From assembly GCA_038049695.1 (NCBI GenBank), contig CP142456.1, positions 17,636,501 through 17,700,500 of the forward strand: 64,000 nucleotides of DNA, given 5' to 3'. The DNA comes from Cinnamomum chago. Lineage: Eukaryota; Streptophyta; Magnoliopsida; Laurales; Lauraceae. The position numbers and the translations under genes were made by a program. Of this stretch, positions 14,962 to 44,720 are shown piece by piece (within the stretch, counting starts at the first letter, position 1; each line of letters starts with the position of its first letter). The notes beneath the pieces were generated by a model. It was not told the origin of the DNA. It saw nothing but the letters and a program-made list of their open reading frames with translations, and did no database searches.

Positions 14962-16950
14962 TCACCTACCCCTTTTATGGGACTTGAATGAAAACCCAGA
15001 CGGCGGCGATGGCGAGAATTCGATGGGAAGGTGGGGAGGCTCCAGCTCTCCAGATAGCATCCCCGCCACTTCTTTGATAGTGGGGCGGTGAGCGGGCAAC
15101 CGCTGGAGGCAGAGGAGTGCAACAGTGATGCAGAGAAGCACCTGCTCCTGATCCAAACCTTGAAGAGAGGGGTCGACGAGGTCCATAAGCTTTCCAGCGC
15201 GAGAGAGATGCCGGGCCCAAGATAGGAGGTTTGCGCGCTCGAATTCCGACATGGGCGAGGCTGTCATCTGGAGGGGCCGGCGGCCGGAGACCAGGACCAG
15301 GAGGAGGACTCCAAAGCTGTAGACGTCGCATTTCTCGGAGAGCGGCCCGCCGCCACCATATTCAGGGGCAATGTAGCAGACTGTGCCCCTCATACTGGGG
15401 GTACTGCTGACTCCGCCGCTCTTGGGGATGTCACCGCTCATCCAGTCCAGGCTGTTCCGCCGCCCGAACCGGAATTCCCCACTCAGCCCTTCAATCCACC
15501 AGTCCATGCTGTTCCGGCTGCCGCGGCTCCTCCTCCCTCTCCTCTTCTTCTTCTTCCTCTCCGGCGTGTCACCGCTGCCGCCCCTCTGCCACCAGGGGTC
15601 TGAATTTCCGCCATTTGCCTCTGCAATTCGCTTCTGCTTCTTCTTCTTCTTCTTGCTCAGCTCCTCGCAGAACTCCTCGCGCCACCACTCCCGCGCCTGG
15701 CGGCATTTCTCCTTCTTCCGAGTTCGGTCCTCGTCCAACGACCCCCACCACTCCAGCCGCCTCTGCTGCTTCTTCCTCCCGTCCGGTTTCCCGACGGCTG
15801 GTTTGTCGTCGCCGGCAGATGCGGACCCGACCATCCAATCACTCTTCGGCCTCTCCTTGCGGATCTCGGTCCCGATCCACTCCATCACGTAGTCCTTGAC
15901 ACCACCCGAATCCGAGGTCCCTCCGTTATCCTGCCGCCACCACCAGTCCTTGCCGGAGACGCTCTTCTTCCTCCTCCCCTTCCGGCGGCTCCCGTCGACG
16001 CTGTGCTTGTCGAAACACCCTTCCGAGCCACTCGTCTTCTCCAACACGTCCGACGCCGACGCGGCAGTGACAACCGTCTCCGGAGACGCTTCAGTCTCCG
16101 GGATCCTAGAGAAACTCTCCGGCGACTGCTCCGTCGCTGCCGCGATGCTTTCGCACTCTTCAGTGATCGATCCGTTGTCTGTGTCGATCTCCTTCCCCCT
16201 GGGCGATCCGGAGACTCGTACAGGCGGAGGCGGATCGATCTCGACCGTCAGATCGGTCTTGATCCTGGCGAGGCCGAAATCGGCGATCTTGGCAGAGAAA
16301 TTGCGGTCCAGGAGGATGTTGCTGGGCTTGATGTCGCCGTGGATGATCGGCGGATCGCAGATCGTGTGGAGGAACTCGAGCCCTCGGGCAATGTCGAGGG
16401 CGATCGAGAGCCGCCGGGTCCAGATCGCGAGCTCCGGGCACTTCCGGTCGATGAGCGCGTCCTGCAGGCTGCCGTTCGGCATCAGCTCGTACACGAGGAG
16501 GAGGCGGCAGCGGCGCCGGTCGGAGCAGAAGCCTAGGAGGGAGACGATGCGATCTGAGCCGTTGATCTTCGGGGCGAGAGACAGCTCGTTCTGGAACTCG
16601 CGCTCGCCCTGGAGGGATCCGGCGTCCATTAGCTTGACGGCGACGTCGACGCCGGAAGGGAGAGCAGCGCTGTAGACAGAGCCAAAGCCGCCCTGGCCGA
16701 GCTTCCGGGAGGCGGAGAAGGATGCGGTGGAGCGGCGGAGGACGGAGTACGAGAAGCAGTGCGGAGGTTTCAGGTCGGAGGGGGCAGTCCGGCTCCGGGA
16801 CAGCTTCCGGTAGATCACCGCAACGAAAAGGAGCACGGAGACAGCAACCGCAGCGGCCGCGGTCGGAACCAGGAGCGGAGAGTGTCGGTGGCGGTGGTGG
16901 AGCGGCAACGGAGGCGGTGGTAGCGGCGGCTGCGGCTGTCGAGATGGCAT
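14962..16950 (-). CDS. receptor-like protein kinase, At1g80870-like, with split kinase domain
   Basis: A single uninterrupted 662-residue frame starting at an ATG at 16948-16950. Residues 1-27 are Pro/His-rich, residues 28-47 form a transmembrane segment, and there is no ectodomain. The kinase starts with a glycine loop (LGQGGFGSVY from L84) and the ATP-binding lysine K106 (VAVK). It has a non-RD catalytic loop HGDIKPSN (H204-N211) and DFG at 224-226. About 290 residues (232-521) are then inserted before the APE motif (IAPE, 527-530), and the C-lobe continues to about 635. The insert is basic and carries repeated aromatic motifs (DWWW, EWIG, EWWG, EWWREE, DPWW, DWWIEG, LDWM). The architecture matches the putative receptor-like kinase At1g80870 of Arabidopsis, also long in the activation segment. 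Key catalytic residues are present, so activity is possible. The coding region is much richer in GC than its flanks. Confidence 0.92.
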   Translation of the reverse strand: MPSRQPQPPLPPPPLPLHHRHRHSPLLVPTAAAAVAVSVLLFVAVIYRKLSRSRTAPSDLKPPHCFSYSVLRRSTASFSASRKLGQGGFGSVYSAALPSGVDVAVKLMDAGSLQGEREFQNELSLAPKINGSDRIVSLLGFCSDRRRCRLLLVYELMPNGSLQDALIDRKCPELAIWTRRLSIALDIARGLEFLHTICDPPIIHGDIKPSNILLDRNFSAKIADFGLARIKTDLTVEIDPPPPVRVSGSPRGKEIDTDNGSITEECESIAAATEQSPESFSRIPETEASPETVVTAASASDVLEKTSGSEGCFDKHSVDGSRRKGRRKKSVSGKDWWWRQDNGGTSDSGGVKDYVMEWIGTEIRKERPKSDWMVGSASAGDDKPAVGKPDGRKKQQRRLEWWGSLDEDRTRKKEKCRQAREWWREEFCEELSKKKKKKQKRIAEANGGNSDPWWQRGGSGDTPERKKKKRRGRRSRGSRNSMDWWIEGLSGEFRFGRRNSLDWMSGDIPKSGGVSSTPSMRGTVCYIAPEYGGGGPLSEKCDVYSFGVLLLVLVSGRRPLQMTASPMSEFERANLLSWARHLSRAGKLMDLVDPSLQGLDQEQVLLCITVALLCLQRLPAHRPTIKEVAGMLSGELEPPHLPIEFSPSPPSGFSFKSHKRGR

Positions 16951-17340
16951 GGTGACGGAAAGACAAGAACAGAAAAAACGAAAATTCCCAATCAGAGAAC
17001 AGAATGCAGAAGCATTTGCGATTTCTGCAATAAAAAGGACCGTTTGGATGTTCCAAGTAAATTGAAAACGAGAGTGATAGAGTTTGCGATTTCTAAAGAC
17101 CGTTTGGATGTCTTCAAAAAGTGCACTGAAAACAGAGAGAAGGAGAAGCAGAAGCAGAAGCCAGTCCTTCTCTCTTCACTCCTCTCACTCACACAGTATG
17201 TAATAGTGGAAAATAAAATGTCCGAATTCAAACATGTGTATGTATATGTACATGAAGATGATGTTATTTTAGAACCTATGGGTGTTGATGCATTTTGATC
17301 CAGACCGTTGATCTCTTTATACTTTTCCACTATAAATGGG
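16951..17340 (-). promoter_or_regulatory. upstream region of the kinase, with a duplicated motif
   Basis: Two copies of a ~30-bp phrase, GCGATTTCT..AA(AA)GACCGTTTGGATGT, lie at about 17019-17051 and 17082-17112, within 170 bp upstream of the ATG (plus-strand wording). No convincing TATA box is seen in the correct orientation; TTTTTATTG on the minus strand at about 17029-17037 is the nearest candidate. Confidence 0.35.
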
Positions 17341-22326: not shown

Positions 22327-22821
22327 TAGGGTTGCAAACGGATATCCGATTTTCCGAAGACCCGAAAGTTCCAATCCGCAAAAATACCGGGGTCTGGAAT
22401 GTATTTTAAGTTCCAATTCATAAACGGGTCCAGTTTCGGGCCCATATAGGTTCCGACACGAAGATCTGGGACCCGACATAAGAGCCTTTGATAATACAAA
22501 TTGTACATCAAAATAAACTTTTCTCTTTGACATTTTTATGTATAATACTGGAGGTAGTAGACTTGATGTACTGTTATAAATTGAATGATATGCTTATTTT
22601 AAGAAAAATGAAAAATAAAGATAAATTAGTTACAATTTTGGAACTAGATTCATGTCCTCTAAGTGAACGTGGTTCCGAAACCGAATCCGGGTTTTCCTAT
22701 TGAAACCGGGTCCGAAACCAACAAAACGGGTTTCAAGTCAAACCGGATCCGGAACCATTAAACGGGTTCGGATCTGGGTCCACTATGGTTCCGATCTAGA
22801 ATCGTTCCGTTTGCAACCCTA
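22327..22821. mobile_element. hAT-like MITE (TAGGGTTGCAAACGG family), copy 2
   Basis: 495 bp with termini TAGGGTTGCAAACGG and CCGTTTGCAACCCTA. Flanks GTTGTAAC and ATTGTAAC match at 7 of 8. It starts exactly 8 bp after the previous MITE ends, so its target was that element's immediate flank. Confidence 0.8.
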
Positions 22822-34000: not shown

Positions 34001-37000
34001 GACCACCATACTGTAAGTACCCATCCACCACACTGACCACCAACCACCATAACTGTAGTATGCCACGCCATCTTTCTACAGCAAACAAAAGCAACAATAT
34101 CAAGAGATAGAATCTGTGTAAGGAAACATCCAGAGGTGTTTTCTGTGAGAAAAACATAGGAGCTGTTTGCACTGTTGAGATGGGGTTCAGGAATCAGGAC
34201 AACGCAATGTTGCCCATCCTGAGTTCAATTCTCTACTGGATATAATGACACGTCACTGATATGCCACACTTCCCAAGAAACAATAGAGATAAAAAGTGCT
34301 GACGCTGAAAATAGAAAGTTCTGCACTGAGTGGTCAACTTCAGCACCGTATACTTTTGGCAATAAGGTGTCGCTCAGTGCCCAATGTTGGCAAACAACCA
34401 CATAGGGTTAGAGCTCCATATTCTTACTTCATGGTTTAGATAATAACTACAGATGAACTATTGCAAATGATAGTTTAGCAGGTGAACTTGCCAGTGATTA
34501 ATGCAACAAGGCATAACTGCTCATTTTGCTAAGAGGCGCTTACTAGATCAATCAAAGGAGCTACTTATATGAAGTAAGAACCCTTTTAAACAATCACAGA
34601 AGAAGAGAGCATCCATCAATTTGTAAGACATTAAATTGACACAGCAAACAGAATAGACTAGAGTACAGAGAGAGTGCTATGGTGTAGCAAAATTACAGAG
34701 TTATGCAAACATTATTTCAATGTAATAAGACTGCAGAAAATCCAAAGAGTATTGAAATTTGAAAGAGTACAATGGTGTAGCAAAGTTACAGAGTTTGGAC
34801 ATATTTTTGAAGAAAGAAATTGCAAAAAATCCAAAGAGAAAACCAAAAGTCGAGGAAAAATGGTTTACTGATCCCCAAGACTGCATTAACCTATTGATAA
34901 AACCAAAGGAAAACCAAAAGCACTTGGTTTGGATAGATCACATGAATAGATTTCCAGAGAAATTATTAGTATGCCTGTAAGATCCCGACCCTAATTAATC
35001 TGTTCATAATTAATTAATTGTATTTATATTTAATTAAGTGGGATTGGTGGCTAAGAGAGTTGGGTTTAGTGTTAGAATAGTGTGTGAAGTTTGGTTTGGC
35101 TTGGAGGGAATTTGGTCCTAGTAGGGAGTGGTTTGAAATTTTGGGAGAAATTGTGAAGGGTTTTCCATAAATTTAGAATTCTTCGATTTTGGGTATGTGT
35201 GTTACAGCATGTGAGTTCAAGTCTCCAATGTAGCAAAAATAAAAAATAAAATAAAATAAAATAAATTAATCGAGTGACAGCATGGCAACATGCATGACAT
35301 AGCTCACCTCTTTATCCAACCAATGCATGCGTGGTACAAAACCCACCATTGTATCTGAAGCACTTTGCCATACGGTAAATGCAAAATCTAAAGTAGAGCA
35401 ACGGACAATTACATCATCATCAACTGAGAAGATCGCGTCCGTTCTGAGGTCCTTGATTGGCTTAAATCGATTATTCAGATTATCCTCCTCATTCAGGTCA
35501 AACCTGAAGTTAGGTTTGTGAGCACTTTGAGACTTTGATAGCACAATCTTGCTAAGATAGGCTTTCAAACTCTCTGACGGTGGATCACGTTCACTCCAGA
35601 CTACACGTATTGCATCAGTCCCGCTGCAAGATGCATAATGGGCCACAGCTTGCTTGAGAAGAGAATTGCGCTTCCAAGTGTTAATTAGTACTGTGTAGCC
35701 ACCCCTATATGAAGTACCAAAAGCAATTGAGCAAGCAGTTGAGCAACTTCGAAAATATTGATTAGTTAGAAAGGCATTCACAAAACCAAGCAAAAAAACA
35801 AGGTTCAAGAGATTCTTTGGTGAAGCAGATCCATCAGATCAAACCAAGGTCACAGTGTGGCCAAGCCTCGACTTTTCTGTAGGCGTTATCTTGAACTTGG
35901 GATCCATACCCATTTTTAGAGAATTTGGATTCCAGTGGGACAAACAATCTCTTATACATGCTGTTTATCCACTGGTCGTATAAACAGTCCCTTACTAGGA
36001 GTGTAAGGCTAAGCCAATGATATGTGGGCCCACTGCAACCCATATTAAGGTCTGCGTGATCAACATTAGGTTGACAGCCTGTATGGGCTTGTGACTCCCT
36101 AGGCCTGGTCATCCACCAGTCCGTTTGGGACAGACAAGCATCCCTTTGGTTGTGTGCAACCTATGTGCAGGTTTTAGTCCTTTCATGTGCAGGCTTTACT
36201 TACTTTCTTTTTTTATTCTTGAAGCATGTGAATGGCTAGGATTTATTTCATTGTTAATTTATGTTAGATGAATTTTTTGGATTGTTAATAGGGTTTTAAC
36301 TTTAAGCTCTGTCTACCCATATTAAAAATGCAATTGAACTGCTGGCAGTCATGCCTGCTGTGTTTGGACATTTTGCAAGAAGAACCTGTCTATTGGGATG
36401 TATGGAGTGAAATAACCCCTATCCCTATGATTAGGATAGAGAGCCCATTCTTCACCACTTTTGATTGGTTTGATGAGCATCTTTCCCCTTTCTCTTCCAT
36501 TACTGCTGTCTAAAAGGAAATCCAGTCACAAAGGCTGATGTCCCGGCAACTAGTAATGAGTTGCAGTCCATGACTTGCATCTGGGACTGCATCATTTAGA
36601 CCCATTAATGAATTGCACAAAATTTATGAAACTGTATTTTTTATTTTTTTTAAGTTACGACATTGTTAAGTTAAAAAGTTAACTAGAAATGGGAACAATA
36701 AACAAATTAATGAAAAATATCGACAAGCAATTTAGAAAGCACTTTCACTACTCATACAGATAGCCAAACAGACGTCACTCAACAATGAGCACAGAGGTAC
36801 GTATTTGCTTCAGCATGAGAATATCTGCTCCTAGAACAGATTGCACAGGCAATATCCACAATAAGCTCCATGAGGTCTTCATTTTACTATTTTTGCATTA
36901 GTGGGTATAGTTTCGGCATTCTTTGAGCGAGGCAAATGAGATGGCTGATTCTTCAACTAAGATTTTTTCACCTAGTAAATACATAAACACAAACACTCAT

Positions 37001-38122
37001 ACACTATACAAGTCCTTAACCAATAGGGCAACAACCGGGGATTGGTCCTTGGTCGTCCCTTTGGAAAGGAGATGCCTAACCACTGGACACCGTTCGTGGG
37101 TTGGCTTAACCGAGGTATCGATGGTTGGCAGTGGGTAAGCTTAATCCTATGTTGTAATCAATCTATTAATTTTCTTGATACAGTATTCTAACTTACAAGT
37201 CTCCAATGCCATGCTCATTTTCTGATGTATTTCTCTCCTACTTTGCTTTTTAATAAGATCTTTACCATTACAAACACACAAGACACATACACACTTAACA
37301 CACACACAGATTTTCCCAACATTTACAAGTTACCCTAACCATCCAGAATAGATGCATATATTTAAGATTTCAGATCTTTAAAAAGGGTGCCCATAGTGCA
37401 ACGTGAGCTCCCTTGACCTAATTGATAAAGTCGATAAAATTAACTATTTGTTATTACATTCTTATGAATATCCACATAGAACAATCAAATAACTCCTCTT
37501 CTACATAAAATGGTTACCTGCCTATCACCGATATCATCTCACCACCTTATTACTCCTTCAATGAATTCGCTCTTCAAGTCCTACAAATTCAATAAGAAGC
37601 AGGCAAAAGGGTCCTTCCTAAAATCCTAATATCAAAAACCACTTTTTTGGTGGGATACTATATTTAAACACCACTCTACCATAACATTCAAGACCCCAAT
37701 TTTTAACAGCACAGCAACATCCAAACACACCCAAATAGATAGTTAAACAAAACCCTATACTTTTAAAACATCATATGAACATCCAAACGCATAAAAAGAG
37801 ACAATTAAACAAAACCCCACTAAAATTCCAAAAACAAACATCAAAACGCACAGATTCAAACGCACCCCGAAGGAGATGAGACGGAAGAAGAGGGGCTAGG
37901 GTTCCAGCCCATGATCGAGCCGATCCGGCCAGCAATGAGAAGTGTGGCAAAGGCGATGCAGGCGGCAAGGTGGAGCTTGACCCTGGCGCCGCTGAGTAGG
38001 TGGCGGAGCCGCATCGGCAGAGAGCGACTGTGGTAGACGCCTCTGGTGGTGGCCTTCTCCTTGGCCGGAGAGTAGGGCACGGCGGCGGAGACGCCATCTC
38101 TGAGTCCGATGATGGCAGACAT
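30916..38122 (-). CDS. GMT1: GT64 glycosyltransferase, GIPC mannosyltransferase GMT1/EPC1-like
   Basis: Five exons with GT..AG borders join in frame to a 349-residue protein: 38122-37866, 35704-35308, 34075-33912, 33318-33248, 31076-30916. It is a type II membrane protein: a cytosolic tail, a signal anchor at about 51-66 (HLAACIAFATLLIAGRIG region), then a GT64 domain from 87. The domain begins GGYTVLINTWKRN, carries the metal-binding acidic motif FSVDDDVIV (DDD 181-183), GGWWSVWWMGTYS (228-240) and RNCEDIAMSLLVANAT (273-287), and ends VKAVDSRHEWFW. Sequence and architecture match Arabidopsis At3g55830 (EPC1, GMT1). That enzyme is a Golgi transferase adding mannose to glycosyl inositol phosphorylceramide sphingolipids and is needed for growth and cell adhesion. 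All parts of the family length are present, so the gene appears intact. A hAT element sits 144 bp upstream of the ATG, so its promoter may be altered. Confidence 0.93.
31077..33247 (-). other. GMT1 intron 4
   Basis: 2171 bp, holds the 142-bp hAT-like MITE at 32070-32211. Otherwise AT-rich without coding content. Confidence 0.75.
32070..32211 (-). mobile_element. 142-bp hAT-like MITE, copy 3, in GMT1 intron 4
   Basis: CTATGATGC...GCATCATA(A), exactly 142 bp, flanked by the perfect 8-bp duplication CTCCTAAC (32062-32069 and 32212-32219). The body is inverted relative to copies 1 and 2. Confidence 0.85.
33248..33318 (-). CDS. GMT1: GMT1 exon 4
   Basis: 71 bp micro-exon encoding NCEDIAMSLLVANATSAPPI and WVK. 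Donor GTAAGTG is a strong match to consensus; acceptor TTGCAG. Confidence 0.92.
33319..33911 (-). other. GMT1 intron 3
   Basis: 593 bp. Most of it (33437-33700) is a dispersed genomic repeat that recurs at 52372-52640 and 53112-53430, with the theme GGCCCCAT, GATGGAAAGA, ATCCAATGGT.TAGTCC. Confidence 0.7.
33912..34075 (-). CDS. GMT1: GMT1 exon 3
   Basis: 164 bp encoding KDGVAYYSYGGWWSVWW through HDYVTRER; phase 2 exit (AG|A). Donor GTATTC. Confidence 0.92.
34076..35307 (-). other. GMT1 intron 2
   Basis: 1232 bp, ends TGCTGTAG. Near 35213-35268 (plus strand) a GAGTTCAAGTCTCC phrase followed by an (AAAAT)n-rich tail may be the 3' part of an old SINE. A repeated ATGGTGTAGCAAA(A/G)TTACAGAGTT phrase occurs at 34678 and 34770. 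Confidence 0.75.
35308..35704 (-). CDS. GMT1: GMT1 exon 2
   Basis: 397 bp. Starts within the GGG codon of SGGGYTVL and ends in phase 0 after GAG (WLDKE). Encodes the first half of the GT64 fold including the DDD motif. Donor GTGAGC. Confidence 0.92.
35705..37865 (-). other. GMT1 intron 1
   Basis: 2161 bp, donor GTGCGT, acceptor CATATAG. Contains CA-rich simple sequence around 37270-37312. No gene or bounded mobile element seen inside. Confidence 0.8.
37866..38122 (-). CDS. GMT1: GMT1 exon 1
   Basis: 257 bp: ATG at 38120-38122, 85 codons plus two bases, donor GTGCGT. Encodes the cytosolic tail and signal anchor (LLIAGRIG). A frame reading MASPPPCPTLRPRRRPP on the same strand here is a GC-rich shadow. 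Confidence 0.88.
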
Positions 38123-38266
38123 GGCTCACCGCCATCAATGGACAGCCCAGATCATGACCGTTGGATCAGAAGTAGAAGCTGGTGGTTCTTCTGGGTTGCG
38201 GAGGTTGTTGTGTTTGTTGGGCTGCCACACCAAATGGCTATGTTTGCTGCTTTTTGGACTGGCATC
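38123..38266 (-). promoter_or_regulatory. residual GMT1 5' region between ATG and hAT insertion
   Basis: Only 144 bp remain between the start codon and the hAT left end. No TATA box in the right orientation is seen. Transcription must start either in this short segment, as in TATA-less housekeeping promoters, or inside the transposon, where TTTTTATAG-like words occur at about 38346-38360 on the minus strand. Confidence 0.4.
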
Positions 38267-38620
38267 CAGGGGCGGATCTTGGACTTTTAATCTGGGGGCT
38301 GTACTTAAGTTACACTAAAAAAATAGTAATAATATCTCACCAAAAACTATAAAAAATAGCAACAATGTCCCACCAAAGATAGCAACAATGGGCGCTTGAT
38401 AATGCGACATTATAACCTAAGATAGTAAATAATCATCAATATACAATACATAAGACCGGTTTTAATTTTTTTTTTCCTAAGTTTTTTTTTTCTTTTCATT
38501 TTCAACTCACAATGAAGTGATGAACAAACAAAGTTACAGAGGTACTGTAAATGGGAAACCCAATCCCATAACGTGGCAGGCTGACAGCTTCTAGTAACAC
38601 AAAGAACAAATCTTTCTCCA

Positions 38621-39010
38621 CAACCACAAAGAATCAAGATGAAGAATAAAAAGAAATTACAAAACCTCCATTTCAGAAAACCATAAAAAATGAACAAAAA
38701 ACCAGAAAATGAACAAACCCATGTAATAAAAACACCCCAAATTTGTACTTGAGATCCAGAGGGCACAACCACAAAGAATCAAGATGAAGAATAGAAAGAA
38801 ACTACAAAACCTCCATTTCAGAAAACCATAAAAAAAGAACAAAAAATCAGAAAATGAACAAACACATGTAATAAAAACACCCCAAATTCGTACCTGAGAT
38901 CCGGAGGGCATAACCACAAAAAATCAAGATGAAGAATAGAAAGAAACTACAAAACCTCAATTTCAGAAAACCAAAGAAGAAGAACAAAAAATAAAAAATG
39001 TGAAAAAACT
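38621..39010. repeat. 145-bp tandem array inside the hAT element
   Basis: Unit starting CAACCACAAAGAATCAAGAT at 38621, 38766 and 38911 (exact 145-bp spacing); the third unit is truncated and runs into the captured fragment. Each unit carries CCCCAAATT(T/C)GTAC(T/C)TGAGATCC. On the minus strand GGTACGAATT occurs both in the unit and at the end of the captured frame, so the array may derive from the intron or 3' flank next to the captured exon. Confidence 0.85.
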
Positions 39011-39019
39011 AATTTTTTT

Positions 39020-39751
39020 TCAGGTACGAATTGAATTTCCAGCAACTGCACCCGGATCCAATCCCGAAGTTCCACTGCACTTCCCCAAAGGCGCTCCGCA
39101 GAGGCCAGGGTTGTTCCCTTGAAACGACTCTGCGCCAATCTTAGAATTGAATTCTCGCAGCACCCCACTAAAATTGTTGTAAGAAATATTCAATCTTTCC
39201 AAATTCAACGCAGAAATCCCCTCCGGAATCAGCCCGAGCCCGGAGAAGAGATTGCCCCCAAGATCAAGCTCCTTCAAATCGTGAAAATTCAAGAGAAATC
39301 TCGGAAACCCGCCTTCGAACCTGTTATTCCCCAAGTCTAACACTTGCAAATTCCCGTAACTCGCATTGGGTAGGGCAGGTTCTGGGAGAAATCCAGAAAG
39401 GGAGTTCCCATCGAGCCAGAGCGAGGAGAGGCGATCGCAGAGGTTCCAAATCGACGGCGGGAGAGAGCCATTGAGCGCGTTCCCGCTCAAATCAACAGCT
39501 GAGAGCGAGGGGCTGTTCCCAAGCTCAAATGGCACCGACCCAGACAACGAATTGACCCCAAGATACACAGATTGCAGGGACGAGAGCTCTCCAATCTCTT
39601 TCGGGATAGTTCCAGAGAGCCCAGAAGCTGGGAGCTTGAGGGACAGAAGCTGGAGAGTGGGGTCCAGTGAAAGAGTGAGATTTGTACTGTGAGAAGCGTC
39701 TGAGCAGAGAAGAAGAGAGCCGTTGGAGAAACCCCATTCGAGGCCTGGCAT
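39020..39751 (-). pseudogene. captured TMKL1-like LRR ectodomain fragment
   Basis: A 243-codon frame without stops. It reads as the extracellular part of the putative kinase-like protein TMKL1 (Arabidopsis At3g24660): GFSNGSLLLCSD, then LRRs such as LSSLQSVYLGVNSLSGSVP, then LPPSIWNLCDRL, GNLQVLDLGNNRFEGGFP, NISYNNFSG, GNNPGLCGAPL and PGAVAG. Homology seems to start at about 39757 (CDMPGLEW against C-x-W-R-G-L-x-W) directly after an in-frame stop, and ends at about 39038 after GAVAG; the last five residues (NSIRT) are transposon-derived. The signal peptide, transmembrane segment and kinase domain are absent, so a product would not be secreted. Intact reading over 240 codons suggests recent capture or constraint. 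Confidence 0.8.
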
Positions 39752-39835
39752 ATCACATCAAAAAATGTGGAGAAAACTTTTTTTTTTTTTTGGCTGAAAG
39801 CTGGGGTGGCTGCAGCCCCCCTAGATCCGCCCCTG

Positions 39836-40016
39836 ATGGTATCAGAATCAGAAGGTAATATCGAGAGAGAGAGAGAGAGAGAGCTTGGTGGTTGCTTCTA
39901 TGATACAGATAAAGATAGAGATAAAAAAGAGGTTAGTTGGTTAGTTAGAAGTTGAGAGAGTCCGGATACTTGAAGGCAACAACTTGGAGAGGAGAGGTTG
40001 TGATGGGGAAGACTTA
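39836..40016. other. spacer between hAT and Harbinger elements, with (GA)n
   Basis: Contains a GAGAGA tract at about 39862-39881. No gene. This would be original GMT1 upstream DNA before the insertions. Confidence 0.5.
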
Positions 40017-40769
40017 GGGTCTGTTTGGGAAGGGGGGGGGGGAATGGGGGGGAGGAAAAAAAGGGGGGAAAGTGGAGGGAAAGTGCTTTTGGGGGGGTGT
40101 TTGGGAAGGGGGGAGGGAAAATGGGGGGGAGGAAAATGGAGGGAAAAATGTACCTTTTTGCCTCAAAATTTTCCCCACCCAAAACAGGGGGGAAAATGAG
40201 GGGAAAGTGAGGAGAAAGGGAAGAAATGACCATATTGCCCTTTTACTTTATTTGAACTTTTTTTCAAAAGCAAGGGTAAAATAGTCTTTAAAATTATACT
40301 TTTTTACTTTCCTTCCCCCTACTTTTTTACTTTCCAAACAAGAGGAGGGAAAATTAATTTTTCCTCCCCTCCCCTTCATTTTCCTTCCCCCTCAAATTTT
40401 CCCTCCCCTCCCCTTCATTTTCCTTCCCCCTCAAATTTTCCCTCCCCTCCCCTCCCCTCCCCTCCTCCCTTCCCCTCATTTTCCCTCCCCTCCTCCCTCC
40501 TCTTGTTTGGAAAGTAAAAAAGTAGGGGGAAGGAAAGTGAAAAAGTATAATTTTAAAGACTATTTTACCTTTGCTTTTGAAAAAAGTTCAAATAAAGTAA
40601 AATGGCAATATGGTCATTTCTTCCCTTTCTCCTTACTTTCCCCTCATTTTTCCCCTGTTTTGGGGGGAGAAATTTTGAGGCAAAAAGGTACATTTTCCTC
40701 CCCCCTTCCCAAACACCCCCCCAAAAGCACTTTCCCTCCTTTTTTTTCCTCCCCTTCCCAAACAGACCC
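40017..40769. mobile_element. PIF/Harbinger-like foldback MITE
   Basis: 753 bp with arms of about 265-330 bp that mirror each other, from GGGTCTGTTTGGGAAGG to CCTTCCCAAACAGACCC. Exact TTA on both sides (40014-40016, 40770-40772) is the Harbinger/Tourist target duplication. The loop (about 40345-40504) is a CCTCCCC/TTTTCC repeat. No transposase. Confidence 0.85.
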
Positions 40770-40777
40770 TTAGGAAT

Positions 40778-42529: not shown

Positions 42530-44720
42530 GAAGAACGTATGGTTCCTATAAAACAACCCGTTCATGAAGAATGGCGAGAACTAACATGGAATACTCCAAG
42601 TCTGATTCATCTAGATCCATGTACTTCACAATGTGAAAATGAAATACGCAAGAAGCATGGCAGTCTTATAGGTTTAAAGGACTCAGCTCTGCGGAAAATG
42701 AGAAATGAACAATCATCATCACTTCCTTTCGAAGAGGCACGTAGCCCTCCTAAAGATGCTCCTCTTGAAGAGGCATGTAGCCCTCTTGAAGAGGCAAGTA
42801 ACACTCTTGAAGAGGCTCCTCCCAAAGAGGCACGTAAACGCTCTTGAAGAGGTTCCTCCCGAAGAGACAAGTAACGCTCCTAAAGAAGTTCCTCCTGAAG
42901 AGGCACATAACGCTCCTGAAGAGGTTATGGTAAAATCCATTCTCTCTAGAATAATGGAAGTCCCTGGTGAGACTTTGGAAGCCCCTGAAGAGGCACCGGT
43001 ACTGGAAAATGAAGAGATTTTTATATTTTATAATTATTCAAAAGAGAGATTGATAGAAATGAAATTATCATCGATGATGCATTTGCATATGTGATAGCTA
43101 TACAAATATCAAAGGAAAATGATGGTGATGATTGGGACACAGAACCACGTTCTACAAATGAATGTCGACAAAGAAAGGATTGGCCAAAATGGGAAAGTGA
43201 CATCAAAGCAGAGTTAAAGTCTCTCAACAAACGTGGTGTGTTTGGACCTATAGTACAAACCCCAAAAGATGTTAACCCTGTAGGTTACAAGCAGGTGTTT
43301 GTAAAAAAAAATGAATGAGCTGAATGAAATTACCAGATATAAGGCACGATTAGTGGCACAAGGTTTCCTACAAAAATTTGGGATTGATTATGAGGAAACA
43401 TACTCCCCCGTTATTGATATAACAACATTCAAATACTTGATAAGTTTAGCAGTTTTTCAAAATCTAGAAATGAGACTCATGGATGCTGTAATTGCTTACT
43501 TATATGGGGATCTAGACACAGAAATTCACATGAAAATCCAGGAAGGATTTCATTTGCCTGAAGCAAAGCCAAGGAGTACGTACTCAATCCAATTAAGGCA
43601 ATCATTGTACGGCCTGAAGCAATCCGGAAGAATGTGGTACAACCGTCTTAGTGAATACTTGTCTAAAAGGGGGTATGAAAACGATTCCATTTGCCCGTGT
43701 CTATTTATAAAGAAATTCTTTAAGGGATTTGCAATATTAACAGTTTATGTGGATGATATAAATTTGATAGGGACTCCAGAAGAGCTAGAAGAAACTGCTG
43801 ATTATTTAAAGAAAAAATTTGAAATGAAAGACCTTGGAAAAATGAGATTTTGTCTCGGATTGCAAATCGAGAGAAATTCTAATGGGATGTTGGTCCATCA
43901 ATCTAATTATACCGAGAATGTTTTAAAACGATTTGGTATGGACAAGGTACATCCATTAAGTGCCCCTATGGTCGTCCGGTCTCTTGATATAAAGAAAGAT
44001 CAATACCATTCCATCGAGGAAAATGAAAAAGGTATTGGGTCTAGAAGTACCATACTTAAGTGCTATTGGAGACCTGATGTACTTGGCATAATGCACTAGA
44101 CCAGATATTGCATTTTCTATGAATCTACTTGCCAGGTATAGCTCCGCACCAACTCAAAGGCACTGGATTGATATTAAACACATCCTACGATATCTGCGTG
44201 GAACAACTGATTTAGGAATATTTTATTCTTACGATCATAAAGATTCCAGTTTTGTAGGGTGCAGATTCAGGTTATCTGTCTGATCCTCATAAAGGTTGAT
44301 CATAAACAGGTTATGTGTTTCTAAATTGTAATACTGTCATTTCTTGGCATTCTACTAAAAAGACTTTGGTAGCTACTTCCTCTAACCATGCTGATATTTT
44401 GGCTCTTTATGAAGCCAGTAGGGAATGTGTATGGCTAAAATCTTTGATTCAACATGTTTGTAGTTCTTGTCAATTACCTTCTATTGCAGGTATCCCAAAT
44501 ATTATCTATGAAGATAATAAAGCATTCATAAAACAAATTCAAAAAGGTTTCATTAAAGGTGACAAGACTAAGCATATAGCACAAAAGTTCTTTTTTACTA
44601 ATGAACTTCAGAAGAACAATGAAATTGAAGTCAAGCAAGTTCGTTTGAGTAACAACCTTGCTGACCTGTTTACCAAATCTTTACCAAAAATCAGCATTCT
44701 AGAAGTTTGTATATGAGATT
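42530..44720 (+). pseudogene. copia polyprotein remnant: linker, reverse transcriptase, RNase H
   Basis: The linker is recognisable at 42560-42710 (ELTWNTPSLIHLDPCTSQCE, then GSLIGLKDSALRK). After an EEA-rich repeat the RT reads ARLVAQGFLQKFGIDYEETY, MRLMDAVIAYLYGDL, SLYGLKQSGRMWYNRL and the catalytic YVDDINLIG (about 43747-43773). A stop near 44097 and frame changes interrupt the connection [20 protein letters not shown]. RNase H follows at 44330-44716 (VISWHSTKKTLVATSSNHAD, LYEASRECVWLKS). The copy is non-functional. Confidence 0.85.
42728..42935 (+). repeat. Glu/Pro-rich coding minisatellite in copia linker
   Basis: Degenerate units around GAAGAGGC(A)CGTA/GCTCCTCCCGAAGAGGC encode EEA-NA-PEEVPP-like repeats. 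Two frames share the array because a one-base shift occurred inside it. Confidence 0.7.

Follow-up and report, generated by a model that had tools for sequence, protein, structure and literature searches.

Gene capture by hAT transposons was reported in grapevine in 2008 (PMC2528002), gene pieces were described in maize Ds elements in 2011 by authors who call capture rare for hATs (PMC3260210), and Pack-hAT elements have been reported in maize and rice (PMC8903248). The original prediction for the locus studied here had held that capture is less often reported for hAT elements. As far as the excerpts of these papers go, this view needs to be tempered.

The window, i.e., the whole 64-kb stretch of DNA that was analysed, corresponds to C6:17636501-17700500 of the 1.06-Gb Cinnamomum chago assembly. 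It contains a 1,569-bp non-autonomous hAT element at positions 38267-39835 (Table 1). Our main reading, with a probability of about 0.94, is that this is a Pack-type hAT element in which break repair copied an LRR piece from a gene on C4, and which was moved in trans and has since decayed.

Table 1. Features of the element and its surroundings, in window coordinates.
Feature	Position	Strand	Remark
Likely exon 1 of a GT64 (glycosyltransferase family 64) gene	37856..38122	-	Inferred gene model; GT64 domain in 35269-35838
Left flanking 8-mer CTGGCATC, target site duplication	38259..38266	.	6/8 with right flank
Left terminal inverted repeat CAGGGGCGGATCTTGG	38267..38282	+	Like ends in MITE copies
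MITE-derived left part (element 1-754)	38267..39020	.	~95-97% identity to other scored MITE copies
Subterminal short repeats	38314..38390	+	
145-bp tandem repeat, 2.6 units	38619..39000	.	
Left copy of the ~28-bp duplicated MITE sequence around the captured piece	38993..39020	.	
Filler at donor 3' junction, ~18 nt	39020..39038	-	Contains 13-nt AATTCGTACCTGA
Captured donor segment, 708 bp	39039..39746	-	702 bp in donor L032
243-codon open frame and stop across the captured LRR segment	39020..39751	-	ATG in filler, stop at other junction
Filler at donor 5' junction, 13 nt, GATGTGATATGCC	39747..39759	-	
MITE-derived right end (element 1491-1569)	39757..39835	.	
Right copy of the duplicated ~28-bp MITE sequence	39760..39787	.	
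Right terminal inverted repeat	39820..39835	-	
Right flanking 8-mer ATGGTATC	39836..39843	.	

Ends and captured frame of the element

The element is bounded by perfect 13-nt terminal inverted repeats, CAGGGGCGGATCT, located at 38267-38279 (+) and 39823-39835 (-), which are the sole two perfect matches in the window; over a longer arm of 16 nt, the two ends are complementary at 15 positions. GC-rich 13-bp inverted pairs spaced 200-3000 bp apart occurred at a mean of 0.08 and a maximum of 1 per shuffled window (50 dinucleotide shuffles), and the same scan of the real window returned the hAT pair, a pair at 22329-22819 and many pairs from a fold-back element at 40017-40769. The flanking 8-mers CTGGCATC (left) and ATGGTATC (right) agree at 6 of 8 positions; agreement of at least 6/8 at the same spacing is found at 0.76% of window positions. 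No transposase was found inside the element, where a Pfam scan of the 245- and 122-codon frames returned LRR and nothing, respectively. The inverted ends, the 6/8 matching 8-bp flanks and the lack of a transposase had all been predicted and are borne out. Elsewhere within the 64-kb window, the search for further copies of the element gave short matches only. The subterminal short repeats form a possible transposase-binding region. The GC content is 52.5% in the captured part and 31.9% in the left part.

The open frame comprises 245 codons from stop to stop (39020-39757), or 243 codons from an ATG at 39751-39749; the longest frame over 500 shuffles of 38900-39835 had 235 codons, with a mean of 132. 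The stop codon (39758-39760) is situated where non-donor filler meets MITE sequence. The frame matches the Pfam family LRR_1 (E=1.5e-16) and carries no secretion signal, membrane anchor or kinase, which confirms the predicted LRR frame of 243 codons without signal peptide, membrane segment and kinase. Single-sequence structure prediction of the frame gave a mean pLDDT of 55. The captured piece and the C4 gene described below are presumably of TMKL1 type, a name taken over from the original prediction. A PDB sequence search with the frame yielded 159 distinct sequences, the best 60 of which are mostly LRR receptors; none of these 60 is named TMKL1, and therefore no subfamily is assigned by PDB. 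Searches with the frame in viral contigs gave 8 pattern matches, none of them related, and those in bacterial genome contigs gave 11 LRR loci at 25-46% identity, which are not informative. In potato, LRR-RLK subfamily VI includes TMKL1, according to one table line (PMC6162732). Among the literature matches listed for TMKL1 together with transposons, there was one paper, on a spruce genome.

Parent family, donor gene and second copy

The empty parent family is a hAT MITE of ~820 bp. Paired ends of this type, allowing two mismatches, are present in 35 of 36 further copies fetched, and the target duplications agree at 8/8 in 29 copies, at 7/8 in three and at 2-4/8 in three, one copy being without a pair; the script that paired the ends favours matching flanks. 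The second sample of 15 new copies comprised seven with 8/8, two with 7/8 and one with 3/8 duplications, and five without a right end. The ends and body are shared with many other genomic copies, 29/36 of those fetched having a perfect duplication; the original prediction, which ends without any other genomic copy would have refuted, thus stands on this point.

Matches to DUF4371 are numerous in the genome (150 of 779 candidates were scored). Four transposase loci were read: two have a full pair of ends with an 8/8 target site duplication, one has a pair with 3/8 flanks and one has no pair. L087:898-4490 and L090:1191-4787 are complete-looking hAT elements of ~3.6 kb with 8/8 duplications and transposase frames of 796 and 831 aa, both of which hit DUF4371 and Dimer_Tnp_hAT. 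Their ends, CAGTGGCGGATCCA and CAGGGGCGGAACCA, are of the same type as those of the MITE family. No element combining both CAGGGGCGGATCC-type ends with a transposase was found in the four loci. The terminal sequence given for Tip100 is CAGGGGCGGAG (PMC12511174). Since like-ended elements encode DUF4371 and Dimer_Tnp_hAT, and since the Tip100 end is CAGGGGCGGAG, the element can be filed by its ends, target duplications and transposase relatives as a Tip100-like non-autonomous hAT, for which these relatives might provide a helper.

The captured fragment matches four places in the genome: the two Pack copies, a gene on C4 (98%) and a gene on C12 (77%). The protein search placed the same four first, with 72-100% identity and E <= 4.8e-102, and the next match had 39% identity and E=1.9e-22. 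The open first block of the C4 gene (L032) has a hydrophobic start, LRRs and a membrane stretch, together with kinase-like sequence, while the remaining kinase domain is in a second block; the hydrophobic start and membrane stretch were called by hydropathy only, LRR and kinase by Pfam. At 98% DNA identity, the C4 gene is the donor of the captured piece, and the C12 gene, with a Ks of 0.76, an older paralogue. Donor similarity spans 39039-39746, corresponding to aa 64-297 of the 456-aa open first coding block of the donor, and the piece ends just short of the donor's membrane segment. The capture boundaries predicted earlier (39758 and 39038) are thus right to within a few bases. The prediction that a single exon had been captured is not supported, the piece being internal to the first coding block. 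A 6-bp in-frame duplication is present in the window copy and absent from the second Pack copy and the donor.

The whole element matches once more at near full length, on C9, with 96% identity. The C9 copy has AAGCACAT on both sides, an 8/8 target duplication, and the same junctions as the window copy, and its flanks differ from those on C6. In a tree built from the left 735 bp of the two Pack copies and 35 other copies, the Pack copies are sisters with a support of 0.949. Scored by simple identity across the left part, each of them is marginally nearer to L065 and at least two others than to its sister (0.969), and the sister grouping therefore rests on the tree and the shared junctions. The shared junctions, different flanks and sister placement are explained by one capture followed by transposition. 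The search of the genome for other copies and for the parental gene, suggested along with the original prediction, was successful on both counts, yielding the C9 copy and the full receptor gene on C4. The element has the hallmarks of a Pack-TYPE transposon: it lacks an internal transposase, it holds a piece of a host gene whose donor lies elsewhere (C4, 98%), and it moves with this piece, as seen from the second copy on another contig with its own target site duplication and the same junctions.

A resident LRR gene with terminal repeats arisen by chance was also considered; the open frame itself is all that speaks for it, and it is ruled out by the MITE family ends, the donor elsewhere and the second mobile copy.

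Junctions, decay of the frame and neighbouring genes

In MITE copies without an insert, the sequence at 38993-39020 is single, and in the Pack copies it stands on both sides of the insert, the two versions being 79% alike in the window copy. The comparison of the two insert flanks scored 36, the best of 1465 background stretches of the window scored 32, and the score was also above those of 2000 shuffles. The 13-nt sequence AATTCGTACCTGA within the filler at the donor 3' junction occurs in 21 of 35 MITE copies and is located here at 38885-38897, on the opposite strand. The 13-nt filler at the other junction matches neither the donor nor, over 10 nt or more in at least 5 copies, the MITE. The ~28-bp MITE duplication and the short fillers fit break repair with template switching. 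A retroposed origin, prompted by the 28-bp direct repeat, was rejected: the insert ends within coding sequence and is without the donor's 3' end.

The order of repair steps that we infer begins with an ~820-bp MITE with Tip100-like ends, in which a break or replication stall would have occurred at an A/T tract in the right subterminal region. Repair would have copied ~702 bp of the LRR region from the TMKL1-type gene on C4, where the donor sequence was retained, and its return to the MITE ~28 bp upstream of the exit point would have left the duplicated stretch and the short fillers. The enlarged element, with both ends intact, would then have been moved in trans by a transposase, giving rise to the copies on C6 (window) and C9, and the captured frame would afterwards have decayed at about the neutral rate. 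As a single genome contains the donor, the MITE family without the insert, the two mobile copies and the two junctions, the repair route is directly readable.

The receptor piece could instead have a compound origin by end bypass, whereby two adjacent MITEs around donor DNA moved jointly and the inner ends were lost later. End bypass has been published for Pack-TYPE elements, including hAT (PMC8903248), and another insert of the same MITE family, designated kind A, appears to have arisen in this way. In the four copies read (L039, L041, L056, and L070), its ~470 bp start right after a (nearly) complete inner right terminal repeat and are closed by a second right end; with L083 as the fifth place, kind A is found in MITEs at five genome places, and the kind A copies (L039, L041, L056, L070, L081-L085) show what looks from their sequence like an end-bypass structure. 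For the receptor piece, however, such an origin is unlikely. The 48 kb read around the donor yielded no MITE, the left part breaks off short of its right terminal repeat, and both junctions contain fillers, one of which shares 13 nt with the MITE. We therefore prefer template switching during break repair for the receptor capture.

On the Pack branches, 18 polarised substitutions are divided into 10 N : 8 S, with the paralogue as an outgroup and the ambiguous codon 160 taken as silent. Spectrum-matched neutral simulation gave a mean of 11.7 N : 5.9 S and P(N<=10 given no stop)=0.22, and 66% of simulations with 18 substitutions of the observed kind were stop-free. C>T and G>A account for ten of the 18 changes, as would be expected for methylated DNA. 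Pairwise Ka/Ks values of 0.27-0.37 (binomial P 0.034-0.055) are a weak hint of constraint, contrary to the spectrum-matched test. The frames fit neutral decay, and the open frame is therefore no evidence of function; the captured frame most likely has no protein role. That it represents a new gene, coding for an LRR protein or decoy under selection, is very improbable. Such a gene would agree with a frame open from the same ATG in both Pack copies (243 and 241 codons) and with pairwise Ka/Ks below 1, but the high share of stop-free simulations and an N:S split inside the neutral range argue against it. Besides, the capture did not include the hydrophobic start of the donor, leaving no route to the cell surface, and the window copy has acquired Cys-to-Tyr and Pro-to-Arg changes.

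The predicted ATG of the likely GT64 gene lies 144 bp left of the element, and the captured frame runs in the same direction as this gene. Small RNA from the Pack copies, sense or antisense, might act on the donor, or the insertion might alter the adjacent GT64 gene. That either effect occurs we consider quite unlikely, although the 98% identity to the donor across 700 bp and the position of the element, which separates the predicted GT64 start from the GA-rich sequence upstream, are in favour; a contribution of Pack elements to transcripts has been published (PMC8903248). The best other match to the GT64 start (C3, 74%) ends ~31 bp upstream of the ATG, and because it stops there it offers no empty-site comparison.

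The likely GT64 first exon (37856-38122) also matches 14 other genome places at 70-74%, 12 of them over query positions 3-260 or 3-268; these are perhaps scattered copies carried by another element. Right beside the hAT element, the 755-bp stretch 40016-40770 has long inverted arms and G/C runs (GGGTCTGTTTGGGAAGGGG...) and is probably a fold-back MITE. At 22327-22821, the inverted pair TAGGGTTGCAAACGGA, with a spacing of 495 bp, resembles the termini of another small DNA transposon. The window further contains a Copia-type reverse transcriptase remnant at 43305-44096 (RVT_2, E=2.6e-50) and, at 14965-17175 (-), a 737-codon frame that covers the initial portion of a protein kinase domain.

Recurrent inserts and comparison with known elements

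The first sample of MITE copies was ranked by whole-element similarity, in practice that of the left 754 bp. So that the right side would not enter the ranking, the left 340 bp of L067 served as a query, blind to inserts inside those 340 bp, and the best 40 of 469 candidates were scored. Inserts of five unrelated kinds, all in one and the same right-subterminal region, are present in 13 of these 40 best-matching copies (2 receptor, 4 A, 3 B, 3 C, and 1 D). Of the remaining 27, three (L094, L098, and L100) lack a right end within the sequence read, and the other 24 show no insert; some of the latter differ in the number of tandem units, and the flanks of L040 and L044 match poorly. The 145-bp tandem repeat makes certain MITE copies appear longer or shorter by one unit.

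Kind B comprises 262 bp and is present in five copies of the MITE. Its positions 42-262 are also matched at a sixth place, on C7, where the 3.2 kb read contained no MITE; this place is therefore likely the donor of this kind. Kind C (350 bp) was found in three of the 15 new copies; a place on C8 matches it at 99% over 7-344 and is its likely donor, as judged by the match ends only. Kind D (~750 bp) was found in one of the 15; its likely donor is a place on C12 that matches at 96% and showed no MITE over the 1.1 kb read. The inserts of kinds C and D (L091, L101, L104, L105, and L107) are 99-100% identical among copies and therefore probably recent.

The right end resumes at MITE position ~730-760 in all five kinds, and the left junctions are located at ~759, 818, 779, 588, and 567. 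The junctions at 588 and 567 would fit the same neighbourhood given one 145-bp unit fewer. We tentatively propose, at slightly less than even odds, a preferred acceptance site: unrelated host DNA enters the A/T-rich right-subterminal region, followed by a re-acquired right end of ~60-90 bp, which would act as a detachable module and make the family a repeated capture device. The clustering may reflect breakage at A/T tracts with microhomology, the need for a functional right end, or a genuine preference. A recurrent acceptance site is absent from the titles and abstract openings of the hAT-capture literature listed. If the shared site is real, the family would offer a series of natural captures at a single place, on which template switching and end bypass could be tested against each other in plant DNA transposons.

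The following comparison draws on excerpts of the papers cited. Tip100 of Ipomoea resembles the element in the first 10 nt of its end, CAGGGGCGGA, and in its 8-bp target site duplication, and differs in being an autonomous 3.8-kb element with an 808-aa transposase (PMC12511174). The Hatvine-6 elements of grapevine are also hATs, whose variable regions match exons, introns and non-genic DNA, but they share a transposase coding sequence, which the element here lacks (PMC2528002). Maize Ds2 and Ds-l4 are hATs with filler DNA, partly genic, for which break-repair errors were suggested as the cause; unlike the element here, they have 11-bp Ac/Ds ends, and the excerpt mentions no common insertion site (PMC3260210). 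The Pack-TIRs of animals, explained by gap-filling or FoSTeST, share template switching, microhomology and breakpoint insertions with the locus and include a multi-copy frog hAT, whereas they belong to animals and the excerpt mentions no recurrent single acceptance site (PMC8277862). The Pack-TYPE hATs of maize and rice are likewise non-autonomous and multi-copy, with 8-bp target site duplications and coding DNA from elsewhere; they carry Bg and Ac terminal inverted repeats, and their acquisition is described as a fusion of neighbouring insertions, unlike the template switching proposed here (PMC8903248). Overall, receptor capture by a hAT element is a known type of event, and the recurrent insert site is the less ordinary part.
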